NCBI GenBank assembly: GCA_009885805.1
Contig: VFJZ01000038.1
Location: 1 to 48,355 of the forward strand
DNA: 48,355 nt
Direction of reading: 5' to 3'
From: Actinomycetota bacterium
Lineage (GTDB): Bacteria > Actinomycetota > Thermoleophilia > Gaiellales > F1-60-MAGs149
Part shown: piece after piece, positions 4,849-46,780 of the stretch
How positions within the stretch are numbered: position 1 is the stretch's first letter
Layout: the number at the start of each line of letters is the position of its first letter
Notes under the pieces: model-generated
The model's database searches: none
What the model was told of the DNA's origin: nothing
Seen by the model: only the letters and a program-made list of their open reading frames with translations
Program-made: the position numbers and the translations under genes

Positions 4849-6915
4849 ATGGCGTTCCGCCTAGGAGTCGACGTCGGTGGCACGTTCACCGACCTGTTCT
4901 GCGTGAACGACGAGGACGGCCGGCAGTTCCGCGTGAAGACGCCGACGACGCCGGCCGACCCGTCGGAGGGAGTGATGACCGGTGTCCAGCGGATCTGCGA
5001 GACGGCGGGCATCAGCCCGTCCGCGCTGCGCAACATCCTGCACGGCACGACGGTCGCGACGAACGCGGTGCTGGAGTCGAAAGGGGCGCGCGTCGGGTTG
5101 ATCACGACGCAGGGCTTCGGGCAGATCCTGCATCTGGCACGCTCGCAGACGCCGGGGCCGCTGGCCGGCTGGATCATCATGATCAAGCCGGACCCGCCGG
5201 CCTCGCTGGAAGACACGCGCGAGGCGGTCGAGCGGATGGACGCGCGCGGCGACACGGTCGTCGCCGTCGATCGTGCGCAGGTCGAGGCGATCGTCCACGA
5301 CCTCGTGAAGTCGGGTGTCGAGTCCCTCACCGTCGGCCTGATCAACTCCTACGTCGATGGGCGCCACGAGAAGGAGATCGGCGACATCGTCGAGGCGCTC
5401 TACCCGGGCTTCCCGGTGACGCTGTCCTCCGACGTCGTCCCGGAGTTCCGCGAGTACGAGCGGACGCTGACGGCGTGCATGAACTCGTACGTGCGGCCGA
5501 CGGTGCAGCAGTACGTGCGGCGCCTGGAGGAGGGGCTGCGCGGCATCGGCGCCACCGCCGACCTCAACATCCTGCGCTCCGACGCCGGTCTGATGACCAC
5601 GCGTGAGGCCGCCCAGAACCCGATCTACGGCGTCCTCTCCGGCCCGTCCGGCGGCGTCGCCGGCGCCCTCTACGTCGCGACGCGCGCGGGCTACCCGAAC
5701 ATCCTCACGTTCGACATGGGCGGCACCTCGACCGACGTCGCGCTGTGCCAGAACGGCGAGCCGACCATCGGCCGTGACACCACCATCGGCCAGTTCCGCG
5801 TCAAGGTGCCGTCCGTCAACGTCCACACCGTCGGCGCAGGCGGCGGCTCGATCGCGCACGTCCCGCAGCTGACCGGCGCCCTGCGCGTCGGCCCCCAGTC
5901 GGCCGGCGCCGAGCCGGGCCCGGCGGCCTACGGCAAGGGCGGCGACGCGCCGACCGTGACCGACGCCAACGTCGTGCTCGGCCACCTGCCGCCGCGTCTG
6001 CTCGGCGGTGAGATGGCGCTCGACGTCGACGCCGCCCGGGCGGCGGTGCAGACGATCGGCGATGCCATGGGCCTGTCCCTCGAGCAGGCGGCCGAGGGCA
6101 TCCTCGCGATCGTCAACGAGAACATGGCCGGCGCGCTGCGGCTGGTCTCGGTGCAGCGCGGTCACGACCCGCGTGCCTTCGCGCTCGTCGCCTTCGGCGG
6201 CGCCGGCCCGCTGCACGCCAACGCGATGGCGAAGCTGATGGGTTCGTATCCGGTGATCGTGCCGCCCTCGCCGGGCCTGCTGTGCGCGATCGGCGACCTC
6301 GTCGCCGACTTCCGCAACGAGTTCGCGCAGACGCACATCCGGCTCGTGAAGGACGCCGACGCGGGCAACGTCGCCGGCATCCTCGACGACCTCGGCGCCC
6401 GCGCGAAGGCGTGGATGGAGGGCGAGGGGATCGCCGCCAGCGAGCAGCGGATCACCTACGTCGCTGACATGCGCTACCACCTGCAGGGCTACGAGATCCC
6501 GGTGCCGATCGAGGCGGCGGCGCTTCGCTCCGGCTGCCTCGCCGGGCTGGCCGGCGACTTCGACGCGCTCCACGAGCAGCTCTACGGCTTCAAGATGGAC
6601 GACGCCGAGTCCGAGATCGTCAACCTCCGCGCGATCGGCTTCGGCCTCGCGCCGAAGATCGAGCTGCCGACTGCCGAGCCGGTGCCCGGCGACGGTGCCG
6701 GCGCGATCGTCGAACAGCACGCGATCGTGTTCGAGGGCGAGCACGTCTCGACGTCGATCTACGATCGCGGCGCACTGAAGCCTGGCGACCGCTTCGCCGG
6801 GCCGGCGATCGTGACCGAGTTCGACTCCACCACGGTCGTGTTGCCCGGCTTCACGGCCGAGGTCGACCGGCACTTCAACATCCTCATCAACCCGACCGCA
6901 GGGGCGACGGCATGA
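4849..6915 (+). CDS. hyuA: Hydantoinase/oxoprolinase subunit A (HyuA, ATP-dependent)
   Basis: The 688-residue protein is the ATP-binding subunit of the hydantoinase/oxoprolinase family, which opens a cyclic amide by activating the carbonyl with ATP. Motifs include GVDVGGTFTD at the N-terminus, LHGTTVATNAVLE, LSGPSGGVAGA, TFDMGGTSTDVALC, GAGGGSIA and FGGAGPLHA, all from the actin-like fold. The start at 4849 puts GVDVGGTFTD at residues 6-15 as in relatives, with GGAAAGG-like purines upstream (ggaaagg). It pairs with hyuB through an unusual repeated spacer. With the carbamoylsarcosine-amidase-like gene downstream, N-methylhydantoin is a reasonable candidate substrate; 5-oxoproline or other lactams are alternatives. 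Confidence 0.92.
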   Translation: MAFRLGVDVGGTFTDLFCVNDEDGRQFRVKTPTTPADPSEGVMTGVQRICETAGISPSALRNILHGTTVATNAVLESKGARVGLITTQGFGQILHLARSQTPGPLAGWIIMIKPDPPASLEDTREAVERMDARGDTVVAVDRAQVEAIVHDLVKSGVESLTVGLINSYVDGRHEKEIGDIVEALYPGFPVTLSSDVVPEFREYERTLTACMNSYVRPTVQQYVRRLEEGLRGIGATADLNILRSDAGLMTTREAAQNPIYGVLSGPSGGVAGALYVATRAGYPNILTFDMGGTSTDVALCQNGEPTIGRDTTIGQFRVKVPSVNVHTVGAGGGSIAHVPQLTGALRVGPQSAGAEPGPAAYGKGGDAPTVTDANVVLGHLPPRLLGGEMALDVDAARAAVQTIGDAMGLSLEQAAEGILAIVNENMAGALRLVSVQRGHDPRAFALVAFGGAGPLHANAMAKLMGSYPVIVPPSPGLLCAIGDLVADFRNEFAQTHIRLVKDADAGNVAGILDDLGARAKAWMEGEGIAASEQRITYVADMRYHLQGYEIPVPIEAAALRSGCLAGLAGDFDALHEQLYGFKMDDAESEIVNLRAIGFGLAPKIELPTAEPVPGDGAGAIVEQHAIVFEGEHVSTSIYDRGALKPGDRFAGPAIVTEFDSTTVVLPGFTAEVDRHFNILINPTAGATA

Positions 6916-7001
6916 GCATGCAACGGCCGGAGCGGAGCGGAGGTCCTTGCGTGCGGTGGCGAACGCCGTGCGACGATCGGAAGGAGTGCACGGCGTGAGC
7001 A
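6913..7001 (+). repeat. Intercistronic repeat copy A (hyuA/hyuB junction)
   Basis: This 89-bp element begins at the TGA of hyuA and ends at the GTG AGC start of hyuB. Copy B at 8927-9018 matches it at roughly 80 of 92 aligned positions, with one 3-bp length difference. It contains GCATGCAA (6916-6923) pairing with TTGCGTGC (6947-6954), a loop with three GGAGC/GGAGG pentamers, and a GGAAGGAG ribosome-binding site eight bases before the start codon. A processing site, attenuator or translation-coupling element is inferred; nothing in the sequence proves which. Confidence 0.85.
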
Positions 7002-8929
7002 TCATCGAAAAGAGTCTCCGGATCGCCGAGATCCCGGACATCGACATCGACCCGGTGACCCTGGACATCATCGAGGGCGCCCTCAAGAACGCGCGCTTCG
7101 AGATGGACGCGGTGCTGTTCCGCTCCGCGATGAGCCCCGTCATCCGCGAGCAGCACGACGAGTTCCCGATGATCACCGACCCGCGCGGCCGCATGGTCGT
7201 CGGTCAGTTCGGCGCCTACATCAACGAGATGATGGAGGACTGGGATCGGGGTATCTATCCGGGCGACGTGATCCTCTGCTCGGACCCGTTCAAGTGCTCG
7301 GCGTCGATCTCGCACACGAACGACTGGCTCGTGCTGGTGCCGATCTTCTACGGCGACGAGCTCGTCGGCTGGGCGAGCCAGTTCGGCCACATGATGGACG
7401 CCGGCGGGCCGCTGCCAGGGTCGCTGCCGACCGGAGCGACGACGATCTTCGCGGAGGGCCTGATCATCCCGCCGATCAAGATCGTCGAGCGCGGCGAGGT
7501 GCAGAAGGACGTGCTGGGGCTGATCCTCAACAACGTCCGCATCCCGTCGATGAACCGCGCCGACCTGTTCGCGATCATCGCTGGCTGCCGCGCCGGCGAG
7601 AAGCGCGTGATGGAGCTGTGCGAGCGATTCGGCAAGGACACCTATCTCGCCGCTCTGCAGGCGCTGCTCGACCGCACCCACGAGGCGATGCGCAAGCTGA
7701 TCGGCCTCGCGATCCCCGAGGTGCCGCAGACGTTCGAGGACTACGTCGACGACGACGGCCTCGGCAACGGCCCGTTCAAGATGAAGCTGACGATCTGGCG
7801 GGAGGGCGACCACGCCTTCTTCGACTGGACGGGCACCGACCCGCAGGCGCTCGGACCGGTGAACTTCTACCTCTCCGAGGGCATGTTCAAGATGTTCATC
7901 GGCGTCTACCTGATCATGGTGAACGACCCGCAGATCCTCTTCAACGACGGCTTCTACCCGCTGCTGCACATCGTGCTGCCGGAGGGCTGCCTGCTCCGGC
8001 CGCGCTTCCCGGCCGCGCTCGGCTGCCGCACGCACGCGCTCGCCCGGCTGTTCGACGTGCTCGGCGGCGCGCTCGTGAAGCAGGCGCCGGAGCTGAACAC
8101 CGCCGCGGGCTACGGCACCTCGCCGTACATGCTCTACTCGGGCTGGGACGGCAAGGGCGACTTCTACTACTCGATGGAGATCCTCTACGGCGGGATTCCC
8201 GGGCGACCGATCGGCGACGGCATGGACGGCCACTCCTGGTGGCCGCTGTTCGAGAACATCCCGACCGAGTACCTGGAGGCGTACTACCCGCTGCGCATCG
8301 ACGGCTACACGACGGTGACCGACTCCGGCGGCGCCGGCTTCCACCGCGGTGGCAACGGCGTCGAGAAGCGCTACGTCTACCTCGAGCCGGGCCACGTCTC
8401 GATCCACGACGACCGCTGGCTGACGCGCCCCTGGGGGGTGCTCGGCGGCGAGCCGGGCGAGCGCTCGACCAAGACCCTCCGCCGCGCCGACGGCTCGGAG
8501 ACGCCGTTGCCGTCGAAGTGCGACGAGGTCGAAGTCAATCCCGGCGACATGCTGATCTACCGCACGGCCGGCGGCGGCGGCTGGAAGGACCGGCTCGACC
8601 GGCCGGCGGCGGCCGTCGAGCGGGACGTCCGCTTCGGTCTCGTCAGCCGGGCGAAGGCGACGTCGTCGTACGGAGTCATCCTCCGCGACGACCTGAGCGT
8701 GGACGAGGCTGCGACCGACGCCGAGCGCAACCGGCAGCGGACCGAGCGCGGACCGGCGCTGTCCTTCGACTTCGGGCCGCCGATGGCGGAGGTCATGGCT
8801 AACTGCCTGGCCGAGACCGGCCTCGAGCCGCCGACGCCAGCGAAGCCGCTGCGCTGGAGCCCGCTCGAGGACGGCGCCGAGGCGCAGGCGCGTGTCCGCG
8901 CGGCCGACGGGATCCCCGCGCCGTCGTGA
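6995..8929 (+). CDS. hyuB: Hydantoinase/oxoprolinase subunit B (HyuB)
   Basis: The 644-residue protein is the partner of HyuA. The family signature is clear: DPVTLDIIEGALKNARFEMD, SPVIREQHDEFPMI, then the metal-site region GDVILCSDPFKCSASISHTN, and in the C-terminal half TDSGGAGFHRGGNGVEKRY and TAGGGGWKDRLDRP. The GTG at 6995 is taken as start because GGAAGGAG lies at ideal distance and DIDPVTLDII follows soon after. An in-frame TTG at 6947 inside the repeat is less likely. Hydrolysis is ATP-coupled through HyuA. The protein is somewhat longer than the second HyuB of this window (568 residues). Confidence 0.92.
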   Translation: MSIIEKSLRIAEIPDIDIDPVTLDIIEGALKNARFEMDAVLFRSAMSPVIREQHDEFPMITDPRGRMVVGQFGAYINEMMEDWDRGIYPGDVILCSDPFKCSASISHTNDWLVLVPIFYGDELVGWASQFGHMMDAGGPLPGSLPTGATTIFAEGLIIPPIKIVERGEVQKDVLGLILNNVRIPSMNRADLFAIIAGCRAGEKRVMELCERFGKDTYLAALQALLDRTHEAMRKLIGLAIPEVPQTFEDYVDDDGLGNGPFKMKLTIWREGDHAFFDWTGTDPQALGPVNFYLSEGMFKMFIGVYLIMVNDPQILFNDGFYPLLHIVLPEGCLLRPRFPAALGCRTHALARLFDVLGGALVKQAPELNTAAGYGTSPYMLYSGWDGKGDFYYSMEILYGGIPGRPIGDGMDGHSWWPLFENIPTEYLEAYYPLRIDGYTTVTDSGGAGFHRGGNGVEKRYVYLEPGHVSIHDDRWLTRPWGVLGGEPGERSTKTLRRADGSETPLPSKCDEVEVNPGDMLIYRTAGGGGWKDRLDRPAAAVERDVRFGLVSRAKATSSYGVILRDDLSVDEAATDAERNRQRTERGPALSFDFGPPMAEVMANCLAETGLEPPTPAKPLRWSPLEDGAEAQARVRAADGIPAPS

Positions 8930-9018
8930 GCACGCAACGGCCGAAGCGAAGCGAAGGTCCTTGCGTGCGGTGGCGAACGCCGGGCGACGCTTCTCCGAAG
9001 GAGCGCACGGCGTGAGCA
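8927..9018 (+). repeat. Intercistronic repeat copy B (hyuB/cysteine hydrolase junction)
   Basis: This second copy runs from the TGA of hyuB to the GTG AGC of the hydrolase. The stem GCACGCAA (8930-8937) / TTGCGTGC (8961-8968) is a perfect 8-bp pairing; in copy A the one changed base still pairs as U-G. The three loop pentamers read GAAGC GAAGC GAAGG here and GGAGC GGAGC GGAGG in copy A, so all three changed together. GAAGGAG precedes the start codon. The downstream reading frame is open through both copies. Confidence 0.85.
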
Positions 9019-9665
9019 CGCACGGGTCCGACACCGACACGCTCTACGAGGAGCGCGGCTTCGGGAGGGCCGCCGGCTTCGGCCGGCGGCCCGTCCTCGT
9101 CGTCGTCGACCTCAGCTACGGCTTCACCGACTTCCCGGCGTCGCCGCTCGCCGGCGACTTCACCGACGTGGTCGCCGCCAACCGCCGCCTGATCGACGCC
9201 TGCCGGGACGAGGGCGTGCCGATCGTCTTCACGACCGTCCAGTACGACGACGCGACGGCGCAGGCGGCCGCGGTCTTCCAGAAGAAGGTGCCGAGCCTGC
9301 TCGTCCTGAAGGCGGGCACGCGGATGGTGGAGATCGACGAGCGGCTCGGCCGGCGGCCCGAGGACGCCCTCGTCACGAAGCAGTTCGCGTCGTCGTTCTT
9401 CGGGACGTCCCTGACCTCCCTGCTCGCGGCGGAGCAGGCCGACACGGTCATCGTCACGGGCGTCTCGACCTCGGGATGTGTCCGCGCGACGGCGGTCGAC
9501 GCGCTCCAGCACGGCTACCGCGTCGTCGTGCCGCGCGAGTGCTGCGGCGACCGCGCCGCGGGGCCGCACGAGGCGAACCTGTTCGACATCAACCAGAAGT
9601 ACGGCGACGTGTTGTCGCTGGCGGAGGTGCTCGAGGCGCTCGCCGCCCGCCATGCGGCGAACTGA
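9012..9665 (+). CDS. Cysteine hydrolase, N-carbamoylsarcosine amidase/isochorismatase-like
   Basis: The 217-residue protein has the cysteine-hydrolase triad: Asp33 in VVVDLSYGFTD, Lys123 in DALVTKQFASSFFGT and Cys156 in VTGVSTSGCVRATA. The C-terminal NLFDINQKYGDV is typical of N-carbamoylsarcosine amidohydrolase relatives, which release ammonia and CO2 from carbamoyl amino acids. Directly after hyuA and hyuB this fits a route in which a hydantoin is opened to an N-carbamoyl amino acid and then decarbamoylated. Its GTG start follows GAAGGAG in repeat B. It overlaps the MFS gene start by 14 bp. The substrate is inferred from context only. Confidence 0.9.
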   Translation: MSTHGSDTDTLYEERGFGRAAGFGRRPVLVVVDLSYGFTDFPASPLAGDFTDVVAANRRLIDACRDEGVPIVFTTVQYDDATAQAAAVFQKKVPSLLVLKAGTRMVEIDERLGRRPEDALVTKQFASSFFGTSLTSLLAAEQADTVIVTGVSTSGCVRATAVDALQHGYRVVVPRECCGDRAAGPHEANLFDINQKYGDVLSLAEVLEALAARHAAN

Positions 9666-33651: not shown

Positions 33652-35697
33652 ATGCGAGGGGCCCGCATCGTGGGAGTCGACGTCGGCGGGACGTTCACGG
33701 ACGTGGTCCTTGCCGACCTCGACCGCGGCACGATCGAGATCGCGAAGCTGCCGACGACGCCCGACGACCAGTCGCGCGCGGTCGTCGAGGGCATCCGCCG
33801 CCTCACCGGCCTCGACGAGATCGGCGACCTGCGCCACGGCACGACGATCGCGACGAACACGATGCTGCAGGCGAACGGCGCGGTCGTCGGCGTCATCACG
33901 ACGGCCGGGTTCCGCGACGTGCTCCACCTCGCCCGCCACCAGCGGCCGCAGCACTACTCGATCATGCAGGAGATCCCCTGGCAGGACCGGCCGCTCGCGC
34001 GGCGCGTCCACCGGATCGGCGTGGCGGAGCGGATCACGGCGGACGGTGCCGTGCTCGTCCCGCTCGACCGCGACGCGGTTCGCGCCGCGGCACGCGAGCT
34101 CGGCGAGGCCGGCGTCGAGGCGGTCGCCATCTGCTTCCTGCACTCCTACCTCGATCCGACGCACGAGGACGAGGCGGCGGCGATCGTCCGCGACGAGTTG
34201 CCCGACGCCTTCGTGACGACGTCGAGCGCGATCTACCCGCAGTTCCGGGAATTCGAGCGCTTCACGACCGCAGCCGCGAACGCGTACGTCGGACCGCCCG
34301 TGCGCCGCTACTTCGAGCATCTCGCTGCCGGCGTCCGCGAGGCCGGCTTCGCGGGCGAGGTCCACGTGATGCGCTCGAACGGCGGCATCGCGCCGGTCGC
34401 GCAGGCTGCGACCGAGCCGGTCACTCTCCTGCTGTCGGGCCCGGCCGGTGGCGTCCTCGGCGGCGCGCACGCCGGTCGCGCGGCCGGGCGCGAGCTACTC
34501 GTGACGTTCGACGTCGGGGGCACCAGCGCCGACATCGGCGTCATCGCCGGCGAGGGCCTGACGGAGGCCTCCGCGCGCGACACCTTCATCGCCGGCTTCC
34601 CGATCATGGTGCCGATGCTCGACATCTCGACGATCGGCGCCGGCGGCGGCTCGATCGCACGGGTCGACGAGGGCGGCGCGTTCCGCGTCGGCCCGGCGTC
34701 CGCGGGTGCCCGCCCCGGCCCGGCCGCCTACGGCCACGGCGGAACGGCGCCGACGGTGACCGACGCGCACGTCGTCCTCGGCCGTCTCGTCCCGGAGCGG
34801 TTCCTCGGCGGCGCGATGACGCTCGACGCCGCCGCCGCGACCGCAGTCGTCAGCGACCTCGCCGGTCGGCTCGGGCTCGGGCTCGAAGAGGCCGCGGAGG
34901 GGATCCTGACGCTCCTCGACGCGAACATGGCGAACGCGATCCGGGCGCTGACCGTGCAGCGCGGCCTCGATCCCCGGCAGTACTCGCTGGTCGCCTTCGG
35001 TGGCGCCGGGCCGCTCCACGCCGTCGCCGTCGCCACGCTGCTGCAGATGCGCGAGGTGATCATCCCGCCCTACCCGGGTCTGTCGTCCGCGTTCGGGCTG
35101 CTCGAATCGGACCTGCGCTACGACGCCGTCGCCACGCAGTTCCAGGTGCAGGGCGCCGTCGACGTCGCGCGTGTCGCCGCCGACCTCCAACGGCTCGAGG
35201 ACGGCATCCGTCGCCAACTCGCGGCCGACGGCGTCGCCGCGGCCGACGTGCGGATCGAGCGGGCCGCCGACCTGCGCTATGTCGGCCAGGGCTACGAGCT
35301 GCGCGTGCCGATCGCCGACGACGCGCTGACCGGGCTCTGGGACGACCTGCACGAGCGGCACCGGCGGGAGTACGGCCACGCCTTTCCGGACACGCCGATC
35401 GAGCTTGTCAACGTGCGCGTCACCGGCGTCGGCGTGACGGCGCGGCCGCCGCAACCCCGCCCCGCCGCCGTCACGACCGCGCCGGCCGAGCGCAGCGTGT
35501 GGTTCCGCCGCGACGGTCGGCTGGCGCCGCACTCGACGCCCGTTGTCGAGCGCTCCTCACTCCGTCCGGGCGAGGGAATCGACGGGCCGGCGATCCTCGT
35601 CCAGACGGACACGACGACGGTGATCCCGCCCGGCTACCGGGCGGAGACCGACGCCGCCTACAACCTCGTCATCCCGGTCGGCGGCCGTTCGTACTAG
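33652..35697 (+). CDS. Hydantoinase/oxoprolinase subunit A, second copy (HyuA2)
   Basis: The 681-residue protein contains GVDVGGTFTDVVLADLD, LRHGTTIATNTML, LSGPAGGVLGGAHAG, TFDVGGTSADIGV, GAGGGSIARV and FGGAGPLHAVAVA, the ATP-fold set of the family. FEHLAAGVREAGF and DLRYVGQGYELRVP are also standard. It differs clearly from the first HyuA in length and detail, so this is not a recent duplicate. The matching hyuB2 lies 2 kb downstream, after two unrelated genes, an unusual separation for normally adjacent subunits. The ATG at 33652 is preferred over 33622 because GVDVGGTFTD starts within ten residues. Confidence 0.92.
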   Translation: MRGARIVGVDVGGTFTDVVLADLDRGTIEIAKLPTTPDDQSRAVVEGIRRLTGLDEIGDLRHGTTIATNTMLQANGAVVGVITTAGFRDVLHLARHQRPQHYSIMQEIPWQDRPLARRVHRIGVAERITADGAVLVPLDRDAVRAAARELGEAGVEAVAICFLHSYLDPTHEDEAAAIVRDELPDAFVTTSSAIYPQFREFERFTTAAANAYVGPPVRRYFEHLAAGVREAGFAGEVHVMRSNGGIAPVAQAATEPVTLLLSGPAGGVLGGAHAGRAAGRELLVTFDVGGTSADIGVIAGEGLTEASARDTFIAGFPIMVPMLDISTIGAGGGSIARVDEGGAFRVGPASAGARPGPAAYGHGGTAPTVTDAHVVLGRLVPERFLGGAMTLDAAAATAVVSDLAGRLGLGLEEAAEGILTLLDANMANAIRALTVQRGLDPRQYSLVAFGGAGPLHAVAVATLLQMREVIIPPYPGLSSAFGLLESDLRYDAVATQFQVQGAVDVARVAADLQRLEDGIRRQLAADGVAAADVRIERAADLRYVGQGYELRVPIADDALTGLWDDLHERHRREYGHAFPDTPIELVNVRVTGVGVTARPPQPRPAAVTTAPAERSVWFRRDGRLAPHSTPVVERSSLRPGEGIDGPAILVQTDTTTVIPPGYRAETDAAYNLVIPVGGRSY

Positions 35698-37688: not shown

Positions 37689-39395
37689 ATGGCGCCGATG
37701 CCGATCGGCCCCGTCGACGCCCAGGTGATCGGCGGCGCGCTGTCCTCGATCGCGCTCGAGATGGGCCGCAAACTCGCCCGGATGAGCTACTCCTCGATCA
37801 TCCGCGAGTCGGAGGACTTCGGCGCCGCGCTGCTCGACGCGCAGGGTCGGCAGCTCGCGGAGTCGACCGACTCGACGCCGCTGCAGCTCGGCCCGATCCC
37901 GGGCTACATGCGCGGTATCTTCACCTGCCTCGCCGCGCGCGGCGAGACGATCGAGCCGGGTGATGTGATCATGCACAACTCGCCGTACCACGGCGCCTCG
38001 CACGGGCCCGACGTCGGCGTCTGCGTGCCGGTGTTCGTCGCAGACGAGCTCGTCGGGTTCGCCTTCACGACGGCGCATCACCTCGACATCGGCGCGCTGT
38101 ACCCGGGCTCGTGCGGCATCGTCGACGCGGTCGATGCGTACGCCGAGGGGCTGCAGCTGAAGGCGATCAAGGTATACGAGGCCGGCCGCCGGGCGACCGG
38201 CGTCTGGGCGCTGCTGCGCGACAACGTGCGCGCCGCCGACATGGTCGTCGGTGACATGGAGGCGCAGATCGCGGCCTGCCGCCTGGGCGCCGAGCGGTTC
38301 GCGGAGCTCGTCGAACGCGAGGGCGGCGATCGCGTGAATGCGGCCGGCGAGGCGTTGATGGACTACTCGGAGCGGATGCTCCGCGCCCGCATCGCCGCGC
38401 TGCCCGACGGCGTCTACCGCGCCGAGAGCCGCATCGACGGCTTCACCGACAGCGCCGACGAGGCCATCCGCGACCTGCCGATCGTCGTCACGATCACCGT
38501 CTCGGGATCGGACATGCGCGTCGATCTGACCGGCACGGCGCCACAGGTCGACCTGCCGATCAACATGCCGTTCGAGGGCACCGTCGACGTCGCGATCCTG
38601 CTCACGATCCGCTCGATCCTGCTCGACTCGGCGACGACCGAGCACGTGCCGCAGAACGAGGGCCTGACCCGTCCCGTCACGATCACGGCGCCGCGCGGAA
38701 CGCTCGCGAACCCGACGTTCCCGGCGCCGACGATCGCGCGTTTCGCCGCTGGGAACATGCTCGCGGCGACCGTGATGCGCGCCCTCTCCGACGTCGTGCC
38801 GCGAAACGTCGCGGCCGGCATCGGCAACCTGAAGGTGACGGCGTACTCCGGTCTCGACGGCGAGCGCTACTGGGTGCTGATGGACATCACCGAGGGCTCG
38901 TACGGCGGGCGCTACGGCCGCGACGGCATGGATGCCGTCGACACGCTGTTCGCCAACACCCGCAACAACCCGATCGAGGACATCGAGAGCCACTACCCGC
39001 TGCGCGTCCGCCGCTACGAGCTGCGCGAGGACCTCGCCGGCGCCGGGCGCTGGCGCGGCGGTCTCGGCTCGGTGCGCGAGGTGGAGTTCCTCGCCGACGG
39101 CCGCTTCTCGCTCGAGGGCGACGGCAGCCTGCACCCGCCGTGGGGGTTGTTCGGCGGCGACCCCGGAGCGACCGGCGGGCTGATCCTGAACCCCGGCACA
39201 CCCGGTGAGCGAGAGCTTCCCTCGAACATCGCCGACCACCGCACCCGCACCGGCGACGTCATCCAGCTCCTCGGCCCGTGCGGCGGCGGCTACGGCGACC
39301 CGCGCGAGCGCGATCCCGCTGCCGTCCGGCGCGACGTCGAAGACGGCCTGATCTCGAAACGAACCGCGCGCGAGCGCTACGGAGTGACCGAATGA
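37689..39395 (+). CDS. Hydantoinase/oxoprolinase subunit B, second copy (HyuB2)
   Basis: The 568-residue protein carries SYSSIIRESEDFGAALLDAQ, GDVIMHNSPYHGASHGPDV, FTTAHHLDIGALYPGSCGIV, the mid-domain VDLTGTAPQVDLPINMPF and the C-terminal LLGPCGGGYGDPRERDPAAV. These are the typical HyuB landmarks. It would form the hydrolase with HyuA2. The start is ATG 37689 or 37698 (the second lies close to the IGPVDAQVIG segment). It overlaps the flavin reductase gene by ATGA, showing translational coupling. Confidence 0.92.
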   Translation: MAPMPIGPVDAQVIGGALSSIALEMGRKLARMSYSSIIRESEDFGAALLDAQGRQLAESTDSTPLQLGPIPGYMRGIFTCLAARGETIEPGDVIMHNSPYHGASHGPDVGVCVPVFVADELVGFAFTTAHHLDIGALYPGSCGIVDAVDAYAEGLQLKAIKVYEAGRRATGVWALLRDNVRAADMVVGDMEAQIAACRLGAERFAELVEREGGDRVNAAGEALMDYSERMLRARIAALPDGVYRAESRIDGFTDSADEAIRDLPIVVTITVSGSDMRVDLTGTAPQVDLPINMPFEGTVDVAILLTIRSILLDSATTEHVPQNEGLTRPVTITAPRGTLANPTFPAPTIARFAAGNMLAATVMRALSDVVPRNVAAGIGNLKVTAYSGLDGERYWVLMDITEGSYGGRYGRDGMDAVDTLFANTRNNPIEDIESHYPLRVRRYELREDLAGAGRWRGGLGSVREVEFLADGRFSLEGDGSLHPPWGLFGGDPGATGGLILNPGTPGERELPSNIADHRTRTGDVIQLLGPCGGGYGDPRERDPAAVRRDVEDGLISKRTARERYGVTE

Positions 39396-45105: not shown

Positions 45106-45984
45106 ATGGTGGCCAAGGAGATCCTCGTCGCCTACGGCGTCGACATCGACGCCGTCGCAGGCCAGATCGGCTCGTACGGTGGTGGCGACTCGCCCTGCGA
45201 TATCTCGCGCGGCCTGTTCGCCGGCGAGATCGGCACGCGGCGGCTGCTCAAGCTGTTCGCGAAGTACGACATCAAGGTCACCTGGTTCATCCCGGGCCAC
45301 TCGATCGAGACGTTCCCGGAGGAGACACGGGCGATCGTCGCGGCGGGGCACGAGATCGGCGTGCACGGCTACACGCACGAGAACCCGATCGCGATGACGC
45401 CGGAGCAGGAGGAGACGGTCCTCACCAAGTGCATCGACCTCATCACGAGCTTCTCCGGCCGGCGGCCGACCGGCTACGTCGCGCCGTGGTGGGAGTTCTC
45501 GCCGATCACGAACGAGTTGCTGCTGAAGCACGGCATCAAGTACGACCACTCGCTGATGTCGAGCGATTTCTACCCGCACCGCGTCCGTGTCGGCGACACG
45601 TGGACGCTGATCGACTATTCGGCGCCGGCCGAGAGTTGGATGAAGCCGCTGGAGCGGGGCGAGGAGACCGACCTGATCGAGATCCCGGCGAGCTGGTACC
45701 TCGACGACCTGCCGCCGATGATGTTCATCAAGAAGTCGCCGAACTCGCACGGCTTCGTCAACCCGCGTGACATCGAGCAGATGTGGATGGACCAGTTCGA
45801 CTACATCTACCGCGAGGACGACTACGCGGTGTTCACGATGACGATCCACCCGGACGTCTCGGGTCGCCCCCAGGTGCTCCTGATGCACGAGCGGATCATC
45901 GAGTACATCAACGGGCACGAGGGTGTGCGCTGGTGCACGTTCGACGAGATCGCGGACGACTACGCGAAGCGAGCGCCGCGGTGA
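45106..45984 (+). CDS. Polysaccharide deacetylase family protein (PgdA/PuuE-like)
   Basis: The 292-residue NodB-fold protein has [16 protein letters not shown] with the catalytic/metal aspartate, [32 protein letters not shown] with the HxxxH metal ligands, and [30 protein letters not shown]-type sequence ([13 protein letters not shown]) links it to the HpPgdA/allantoinase (PuuE) group, which hydrolyses acetamido or allantoin C-N bonds. AAGGAGG lies just before ATG 45106; the GTG at 45109 would give better spacing. In a ureide-rich window an allantoinase-like role is as likely as peptidoglycan deacetylation. Its TGA sits inside a REP palindrome. Confidence 0.88.
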
Positions 45985-46013
45985 AAGAACGGGATCTGAT
46001 CCCTTTCTTTCAC
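45981..46013. repeat. RAYT-associated palindrome, copy 1
   Basis: A 33-bp palindrome beginning GTGAAAGAACGGGATC and ending GATCCCTTTCTTTCAC, sharing the central GATC pairing with one mismatch in 16; flanking CGCG extends the arms to 45977-46017. It contains the deacetylase stop (45982-45984) and the RAYT stop (46012-46010). It can form a strong RNA hairpin between the convergent genes and probably terminates both. Confidence 0.75.
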
Positions 46014-46702
46014 CGCGTCGAGCGTCGCCATGCCGTCGCCTCGCTCACGCCGAGCGCCGCAGCGATCTCGCGGAGGGTGTAGCCGTACACCCGGTGCGCC
46101 CGCACGATGCTCGACGCCGTGTCGTCCAGGACGTCGTCCAGGTATGGGCGACCTTCGTTCGACGAACCCGGGTTGCCGAGGTGCCGCACGACTGATTCGA
46201 AGCGCTCGTGGCCGCCGCAGGCAGCAATCGCGGCGGCCACGTCGAGCCACGGCGGCGCCGGGACGATGCCGACCGTCGCGCGGTAGGACGACCACGGCCA
46301 GTCGACGGCACCCGTGACGAACCCGTCCTTCGCCGGATTCGCTACGACATAGGGGACCACGTGCGCGTGGTACCGCGGATCGTTGACGACGCGGCTCTTG
46401 AACCGTCCCTCGTAGACGTGCCCCCGGCGGACGCGGTGCTTGTTCCACCAGGTGCCGTAGGTCGCGAGCAACTGATGCATCCCGACCGAGAGTGCTCCCT
46501 TCGGCCTGACGACGATGTGAAGGTGGTTCGGCATGACGGCGTACGCCTCGACCGCCCAGCCGTGCCTGGTCGCGGCAGTACCAAGAGCACGCTCGAATCG
46601 CTCGAACTCCGAGCGGTCGCCGTGAATGGTCTGGCGATCGTTGCCGCGCGTGTAGACGTGGTAGACACCGTCAGGATGATCGAGTCGCAGGGGGTGCGGC
46701 AC
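46010..46702 (-). CDS. REP-associated tyrosine transposase (RAYT, IS200-like Y1 fold)
   Basis: The 230-residue protein has the HUH motif VMPNHLHIVV (His60, His62) and the candidate catalytic tyrosine Tyr82 in LLATYGTWWNKH, followed by GHVYEGRFKSRVV, all typical of RAYTs. The N-terminus (GVYHVYTRGNDRQTI) is standard. An extra C-terminal helix-turn-helix (YTLREIAAALGVSEATAWRR) may help binding. RAYTs move or maintain REP palindromes. It lies between two matching palindromes, one of which includes its stop codon. It appears intact and domesticated, as no terminal inverted repeats or target duplications of an IS are evident. Confidence 0.9.
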   Translation of the reverse strand: MPHPLRLDHPDGVYHVYTRGNDRQTIHGDRSEFERFERALGTAATRHGWAVEAYAVMPNHLHIVVRPKGALSVGMHQLLATYGTWWNKHRVRRGHVYEGRFKSRVVNDPRYHAHVVPYVVANPAKDGFVTGAVDWPWSSYRATVGIVPAPPWLDVAAAIAACGGHERFESVVRHLGNPGSSNEGRPYLDDVLDDTASSIVRAHRVYGYTLREIAAALGVSEATAWRRSTR

Positions 46703-46747: not shown

Positions 46748-46780
46748 GTGAAAGAAAGGGATCGGATCCCGATCTTTCAC
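46748..46780. repeat. RAYT-associated palindrome, copy 2
   Basis: The 33-bp palindrome GTGAAAGAAAGGGATC-g-GATCCCGATCTTTCAC matches copy 1 and lies about 45 bp upstream of the RAYT start. It contains the stop codon (46779-46777) of the second cysteine hydrolase. Two arm mismatches remain. The pair frames the RAYT gene like a REP doublet. Confidence 0.75.

Follow-up and report, generated by a model that had tools for sequence, protein, structure and literature searches.

The closest described systems are the mycobacterial MIRUs, short dispersed repeats located at start codons and codirectional with the genes, some of them in tandem arrays (PMC12548453, PMC4473831, PMC4213456). The small ORF of the unit overlaps the neighbouring ORFs with a −4 coupling to the next gene, units of 77 and 53 bp are given, three of them in tandem in the senX3-regX3 region, and the MIRUs are described as having no dyad symmetries (PMC12548453, PMC4473831, PMC4213456). 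Two models of coupling, RNA unfolding and ribosome scanning with reinitiation, are treated in one review (PMC12548453). In addition, the REP/REPIN sequences associated with RAYT (Y1 family, IS200/IS605-like) are characterized as dispersed short hairpin repeats with a GT(A/G)G head, an imperfect palindrome and a fixed tetranucleotide at the hairpin foot (PMC2817692). No stop/start-overlap elements of the MIRU kind outside mycobacteria were found in the open-licence literature searched.

In this study, we report a real family of mini-ORF repeats targeted to start codons that had not been seen before in the collections and literature searched. The window (the whole stretch of DNA that was analysed, 48,355 nucleotides in length) carries two of its copies, A and B, one on each side of hyuB. 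The features of this region are the following:

4849 to 6915, + strand: hyuA (Hydantoinase_A), host gene upstream of copy A
6912 to 7000, + strand: repeat unit copy A (RTGAGC to RTGAGC), period 83 nt
6912 to 6998, + strand: mini-ORF of copy A, 28 codons; ATG overlapping the hyuA stop TGA (6913-6915), TGA overlapping the hyuB start GTG (6995)
6916 to 6954, + strand: hairpin 1 of copy A, predicted
6963 to 6996, + strand: hairpin 2 of copy A, predicted; SD inside, the hyuB start codon paired at its first two bases
6982 to 6986, + strand: SD-like AGGAG of copy A, 8 nt 5' of the hyuB start codon
6995 to 8929, + strand: hyuB (Hydantoinase_B), between copies A and B
8926 to 9017, + strand: repeat unit copy B, period 86 nt
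8926 to 9015, + strand: mini-ORF of copy B, 29 codons; GTG overlapping the hyuB stop TGA (8927-8929), TGA overlapping the isochorismatase start GTG (9012)
8930 to 8968, + strand: hairpin 1 of copy B, predicted
8977 to 9013, + strand: hairpin 2 of copy B, predicted; with SD and start codon bases
8999 to 9003, + strand: SD-like AGGAG of copy B, 8 nt 5' of the isochorismatase start codon
9012 to 9665, + strand: isochorismatase-family gene, downstream of copy B

Both repeats were present where the initial annotation had located them (6913-7001 and 8927-9018), and a degenerate hairpin-1 pattern gave two matches in the window compared with none in 100 shuffles. The stem GCAYGCAA/TTGCGTGC is common to the two copies, with the reported change from U-G in A to C-G in B. 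The difference of 3 nt in length, which had been read as keeping the downstream frame open, is also real; what it keeps is a mini-ORF, 28 codons long in A and 29 in B. Hairpin 1 had been correctly described, while a second, equally conserved hairpin that includes the SD and the start codon had been overlooked. The claim that the three loop pentamers change in step did not survive the comparison of 18 distinct copies, in which they vary independently (e.g., GGAGC GAAGC GGAGG; GCAGC GAAGC GCCGG) and copies A and B are uniform by chance only. A scan of positions 6800-9150 for sigma-70 promoters and terminators found none. The window also holds second, diverged hyuA-like and hyuB-like genes (33670-35697 and 37689-39395) without the element, and the hydantoinase B paralogues are greatly expanded in the relative G060, where 59 candidates gave 20 scored hyuB-like matches.

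The host genome consists of 3.56 Mb in 101 contigs. Blastn revealed 23 copies of the unit at about 16 sites, the identical 23 being recovered with a covariance model; 21 of them are full, one is truncated at the 5' end and one is cut by a contig end. Further covariance-model matches in this genome were weak or at noise level and mostly antisense to known copies. Tandem head-to-tail arrays are found in C21 (2 units), C27 (2 units) and C76 (at least 5 units, reaching the contig end). Since contig C51 (L015) stops just past a unit identical to one in C76 (L013/L021), both contigs are probably the two sides of one long array, and they were counted as one site. This array, which would have broken the assembly, is suggested to lie between a cupin gene and one for a ROK kinase.

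The period is 83 or 86 nt in all full host units and 80 in a copy from another genus described below. As these values are 2 mod 3, a reading frame that starts with the RTG of the 5' end runs into a TGA that overlaps the 3' RTG. The resulting mini-ORF has 28 or 29 codons in the host units and is open in 18/18 distinct ones, with TTG as the 5' codon in one of them, and within the arrays the mini-ORFs are chained head to tail via 4-nt overlaps. AGGAG or a close variant lies 8 nt 5' of the 3' start codon of each unit. Two hairpins are predicted. Hairpin 1, which is imperfect, comes directly after the 5' RTGA, and this tetranucleotide is its foot. Hairpin 2, formed by alignment columns 52-61 with 79-88, has the SD inside, and the downstream start codon takes part in its pairing with the first two bases.

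At all 16 sites the 3' RTG of the unit is the start of the next ORF. The proteins of these ORFs have a Pfam domain in 14 of the 16 cases, the exceptions being C50 and C27, and they comprise HyuB, isochorismatase, a molybdopterin-dehydrogenase FAD subunit, UDP-GlcNAc epimerase, a radical SAM protein of the CofH/MqnC type, ROK, a luciferase-like monooxygenase, formamidase, a competence protein (ComEC), PlsY, PilZ, an ABC ATPase (LivF), a topoisomerase and adenosine deaminase. The 5' TGA of the unit is the stop codon of the upstream gene at 12/16 sites. In C78 the stop of the upstream gene comes 6 nt earlier, in C89 and C27 no same-strand upstream gene was seen ending at the unit, and the copy in C32 has lost its 5' third. 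What all sites have in common is the start codon, the overlap with a stop being usual and not needed. Given the sites in C78, C89 and C27, which have no stop overlap, coupling to the upstream gene cannot be the general role of the element.

The window contains 46 RTGAGC sites, 4 of them made by the element. The other 42 correspond to 4 start codons, 2 intergenic sites and 36 sites within genes on either strand, a table that is approximate as its gene calls come from a rough codon-usage script. Placement at start codons in 16 of 16 sites would not be given by random insertion, and insertion followed by the loss of harmful events could largely produce it. The copies do not lie at random within genes, which supports the initial proposal of a dispersed repeat inserting at gene junctions.

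The junctions without the element were sought in relatives, those used for hyuB being 14 with HyuB at 81-84% identity, among 60 relatives searched. None of the 14 had the element at the hyuB/isochorismatase junction, and 12 of them showed there a bare 4-nt overlap (GTGAGC, GTGAGT, ATGAGT or ATGAGC). Similarly, the livG/livF junction is a bare RTGA overlap in 5/5 relatives. For comEA/comEC only the base before the stop was counted: among the 23 relatives whose locus included both genes, 21 have A, G or T in front of the comEA stop (DTGA), one of them as TTGA, and 6 of 29 relative loci had no upstream match. At the hyuA/hyuB junction, occupied by copy A, the 14 relatives have no RTGA overlap, hyuB starting 11-17 nt past the first base of the hyuA stop. 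No overlap was seen either between the polyprenyl synthetase and radical-SAM genes, with offsets of 4-26 nt in the 11 relatives (of 14) whose start could be placed. It must be noted, then, that the bare junction preceding insertion is evident at hyuB/isochorismatase and livG/livF, but not at hyuA/hyuB or polyprenyl synthetase/radical SAM. In view of the gapped relatives at these last two junctions, either the host lineage first gained RTGAGC or the copy came by another route.

The covariation that had been proposed from two copies, and on which the initial annotation had made its proposal depend, persists in the larger alignment of 18 distinct copies and one divergent copy from another genus. 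In the 18 distinct copies, 97.0% of the pairing cells are occupied by pairs compared with 94.0% after shuffling (0/500 shuffles reach it), and five pairs are changed on both sides (2/500 shuffles). The covariation score, which kinship of the copies may inflate, was 0.142 vs 0.089 in the shuffled set (0/500) and at most 0.041 in the slid-partner controls. The tree of the 18 copies has no well-supported branch and is too weak for counting independent compensatory events.

Among the deviations from pairing in the stems, 9 pair types are G-U on the coding strand, none is A-C and 10 are other mismatches. An A-C on the coding strand would be a G-T on the opposite strand. Therefore, the presence of G-U and the lack of A-C deviations suggest that the structure is of importance on the mRNA strand or, alternatively, on single-stranded DNA of the top strand. 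In the unpaired columns there was no excess of C to T changes (2) over G to A changes (4).

The covariance-model search of 129 genomes of the order detected a single copy outside the host, in a different genus of its family (G002, contig C107; 44.5 bits, E 4e-5 calculated for one genome). The other 127 genomes gave none and a sample of 396 genomes of the phylum gave a match in the host alone, both under strict filters by which weak copies could be missed. The sequence of the G002 copy is widely different, and it keeps RTGAGC at both ends, a period of 80 nt, an ORF of 27 codons, both hairpins and, in the middle of the unit, CGGTGGCGA. It is placed between an ABC ATPase gene and that of its permease. 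When it was aligned with 15 of the 18 distinct host units, three further pairs of hairpin 2 were found changed on both sides and still pairing (4 pairs in all; 0/500 shuffles). No second copy was found in 20 of the approximately 520 contigs of G002.

A generic scan for RTGAG[CT]...RTGAG[CT] with a spacing of 45-125, performed on 110 non-host loci (549,922 bases, overlaps included), provided 32 pairs, of which 7 were open with a spacing of 2 mod 3; on visual inspection, the G002 element, detected twice (L144 and L147), was the only one that went beyond ordinary sequence. The search of plasmids and phages for the unit gave no match, and the pattern scan of viral contigs gave none. In Rfam, no family reached the gathering score in the window, and when E values up to 1 were admitted, 6880-9060 gave nothing but noise outside the units. 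Two candidates were discarded: the only match of the pattern scan in 84,980 species, located in a Ciceribacter coding sequence without the layout of the unit and attributed to chance, and a partial blastn match in G051, rejected as sequence without this layout.

Taking the above into account, we consider it probable that A and B are copies of a small non-autonomous mobile cassette that targets start codons and is harmless through translational coupling. At the level of sequence, this is supported by the family, its anatomy and placement, the empty sites and the hairpins that covary on the coding strand. The insertion target would be an RTGAGC whose RTG is or overlaps a gene start, most often at the 4-nt overlap of a stop and a start within an operon, and RTGAGC would be duplicated on insertion. 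The old ribosome-binding site and start codon would then serve the mini-ORF of 27-29 codons carried by the cassette, and the TGA of this mini-ORF would overlap the new RTG, from which the host gene would restart in its own frame. An SD supplied by the cassette would lie 8 nt before the new start, both being folded into hairpin 2. Since hairpin 2 would hide the SD and the start, it would have to be opened by a ribosome coming through the mini-ORF, and translation downstream would take place mainly when a ribosome from the upstream gene translates the mini-ORF, opens hairpin 2 and reinitiates. Such a layout would satisfy both the RNA unfolding and the scanning/reinitiation models. Insertion would be near-neutral, and the cassette could then spread and form head-to-tail arrays. 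Translation of the mini-ORF, the coupling and transposition by an enzyme acting in trans are what we infer from this arrangement. The initial annotation had offered translational coupling, mRNA processing and a dispersed repeat as separate possibilities; the first and the last are supported jointly, in the form of a repeat at junctions that would be built for coupling, and nothing was found pointing to mRNA processing.

The possibility that best survives next to the mobile cassette, although we find it unlikely, is that of a non-autonomous element of the REP/IS200-IS605 type, in which the hairpins would serve single-strand transposition and coupling would be a by-product of the survival of insertions. 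The left-end RTGA at the foot of an imperfect hairpin, the right-end RTGA directly after a hairpin, the direct ends and the tandem arrays all fit with it. Direct rather than inverted ends and tandem arrays are traces of peel-and-paste IS200/IS605 elements. There are, moreover, three Y1 transposase genes in the host genome, one of them with about 35 REP palindromes and located in the window:

46010 to 46702, − strand: Y1 transposase gene (PF01797), with 33-bp palindromes at 45981-46013 and 46748-46780

Against it, this element does not flank any of the Y1 genes, and the wobble test does not separate RNA from top-strand DNA. The three genes were rejected as linked mobilisers, each being accompanied by other hairpins or palindromes, and no transposase linked to the element was found in the host genome. 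The 33-bp palindromes around the gene of the window (GTGAAAGAAMGGGATC...TCTTTCAC) occur at about 35 places in the genome and are a separate, REP/RAYT-like family, while the Y1 genes at L032 (C33) and L033 (C98) are beside their own hairpins, GTGTCGCAA...TTGCGACAC and CTGGCCAGGCTCCG...CGGAGCCTGGCCAG, respectively. The REP/IS200-IS605-type explanation is compatible with the mobile cassette, to which it would supply the missing enzyme. In this regard, it is conceivable, if rather doubtful, that the element represents a second class, of independent build, of mobile mini-ORFs directed at start codons. It would be moved by a Y1-type single-strand transposase that recognises the RTGA stop/start overlap, hairpins 1 and 2 being its left and right binding ends and hairpin 2 acting also as an RNA switch through which translation of the host gene would depend on the mini-ORF. 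If so, the DTGA choice and the head-to-tail arrays of MIRU-type elements would be explained.

A cis-regulatory RNA of a regulon, either riboswitch-like or a protein-bound leader, spread by selection for regulation, would also present two covarying hairpins on the coding strand with the SD and the start codon sequestered, but we judge it improbable, given that the downstream genes have no common theme (topoisomerase, ComEC, PlsY, adenosine deaminase, LivF, ROK kinase, hydantoinase), the units form head-to-tail arrays, Rfam has no match, and the 23 copies of one genome are accompanied by a single copy in another genus and none in the remaining 127 genomes searched within the order. Still less credit is due to a dispersed small gene with a functional peptide. 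The open frame of the 18 units and a length held at 2 mod 3 would agree with it, but nonsynonymous changes (36/177) are as frequent as synonymous ones (13/64), 20% each, without enrichment at third positions. Stop-creating changes (0/11) are not significant taken alone. With nonsynonymous changes no rarer than synonymous ones, what is kept is the reading frame and not the peptide, and selection seems to act accordingly on the openness of the frame. Finally, a local duplication of A and B without wider meaning is refuted by the 21 further copies elsewhere with unrelated flanks, even if one of the two may derive from the other or have converted it. As to this pair itself, A and B are 88% identical and share a T at position 33 that is absent from the other 16 distinct copies in alignment A3, so that local copying or conversion between them is possible.

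With a second family in an unrelated genome, which presents empty sites, arrays, strand-specific covarying hairpins and a divergent copy in another genus, it becomes testable whether the stop/start overlap as a safe landing site is a general strategy of small mobile elements. The units would be natural, ready-made coupling cassettes with ORF, SD, hairpin and start, and they possibly constitute a translated layer between operon genes that has been overlooked by gene callers.

With respect to known systems, the element resembles translationally coupled leaders and bicistronic-design mini-ORFs in that a short ORF would bring the ribosome to an overlapping start behind a hairpin, and differs from them in that its mini-ORF belongs to a multi-copy dispersed element. 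It shares with REP/REPIN the dispersed short hairpin repeats, the fixed tetranucleotide at the hairpin foot and the presence of Y1 transposases in the genome. Unlike REP sequences as described, it has no GT(A/G)G head, its foot being RTGA, and is not palindromic as a whole; it occurs only at start codons, carries an ORF and an SD, is not beside a rayt gene, and does not flank any of the three Y1 genes in inverted orientation.

The similarities with MIRUs are closer. Both have a small ORF in the same orientation with −4 overlaps (here at both ends in 12/16 sites and at the 3' end in 16/16), and in both, going by the reported MIRU units, lengths are 2 mod 3 (77 and 53 bp there; 80, 83 and 86 here). 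To our knowledge WhiB is universal in mycobacteria; no WhiB match (PF02467) was obtained in the host genome, while it was present in the Corynebacterium control, which indicates that the host is not a Mycobacterium. The element was not filed as a MIRU because its dyad symmetry is conserved, in two covarying hairpins, MIRUs being described as having none, and because WhiB is absent, a separation made by description. MIRU insertion reportedly takes place at DTGA sites, in the wording of the 1997 abstract of Supply et al.; the empty junctions of the relatives studied here are RTGA, and start codons are the target in both. By analogy, the element appears to work like a MIRU, and the MIRU logic gains a second, structurally richer example with a testable mechanism.
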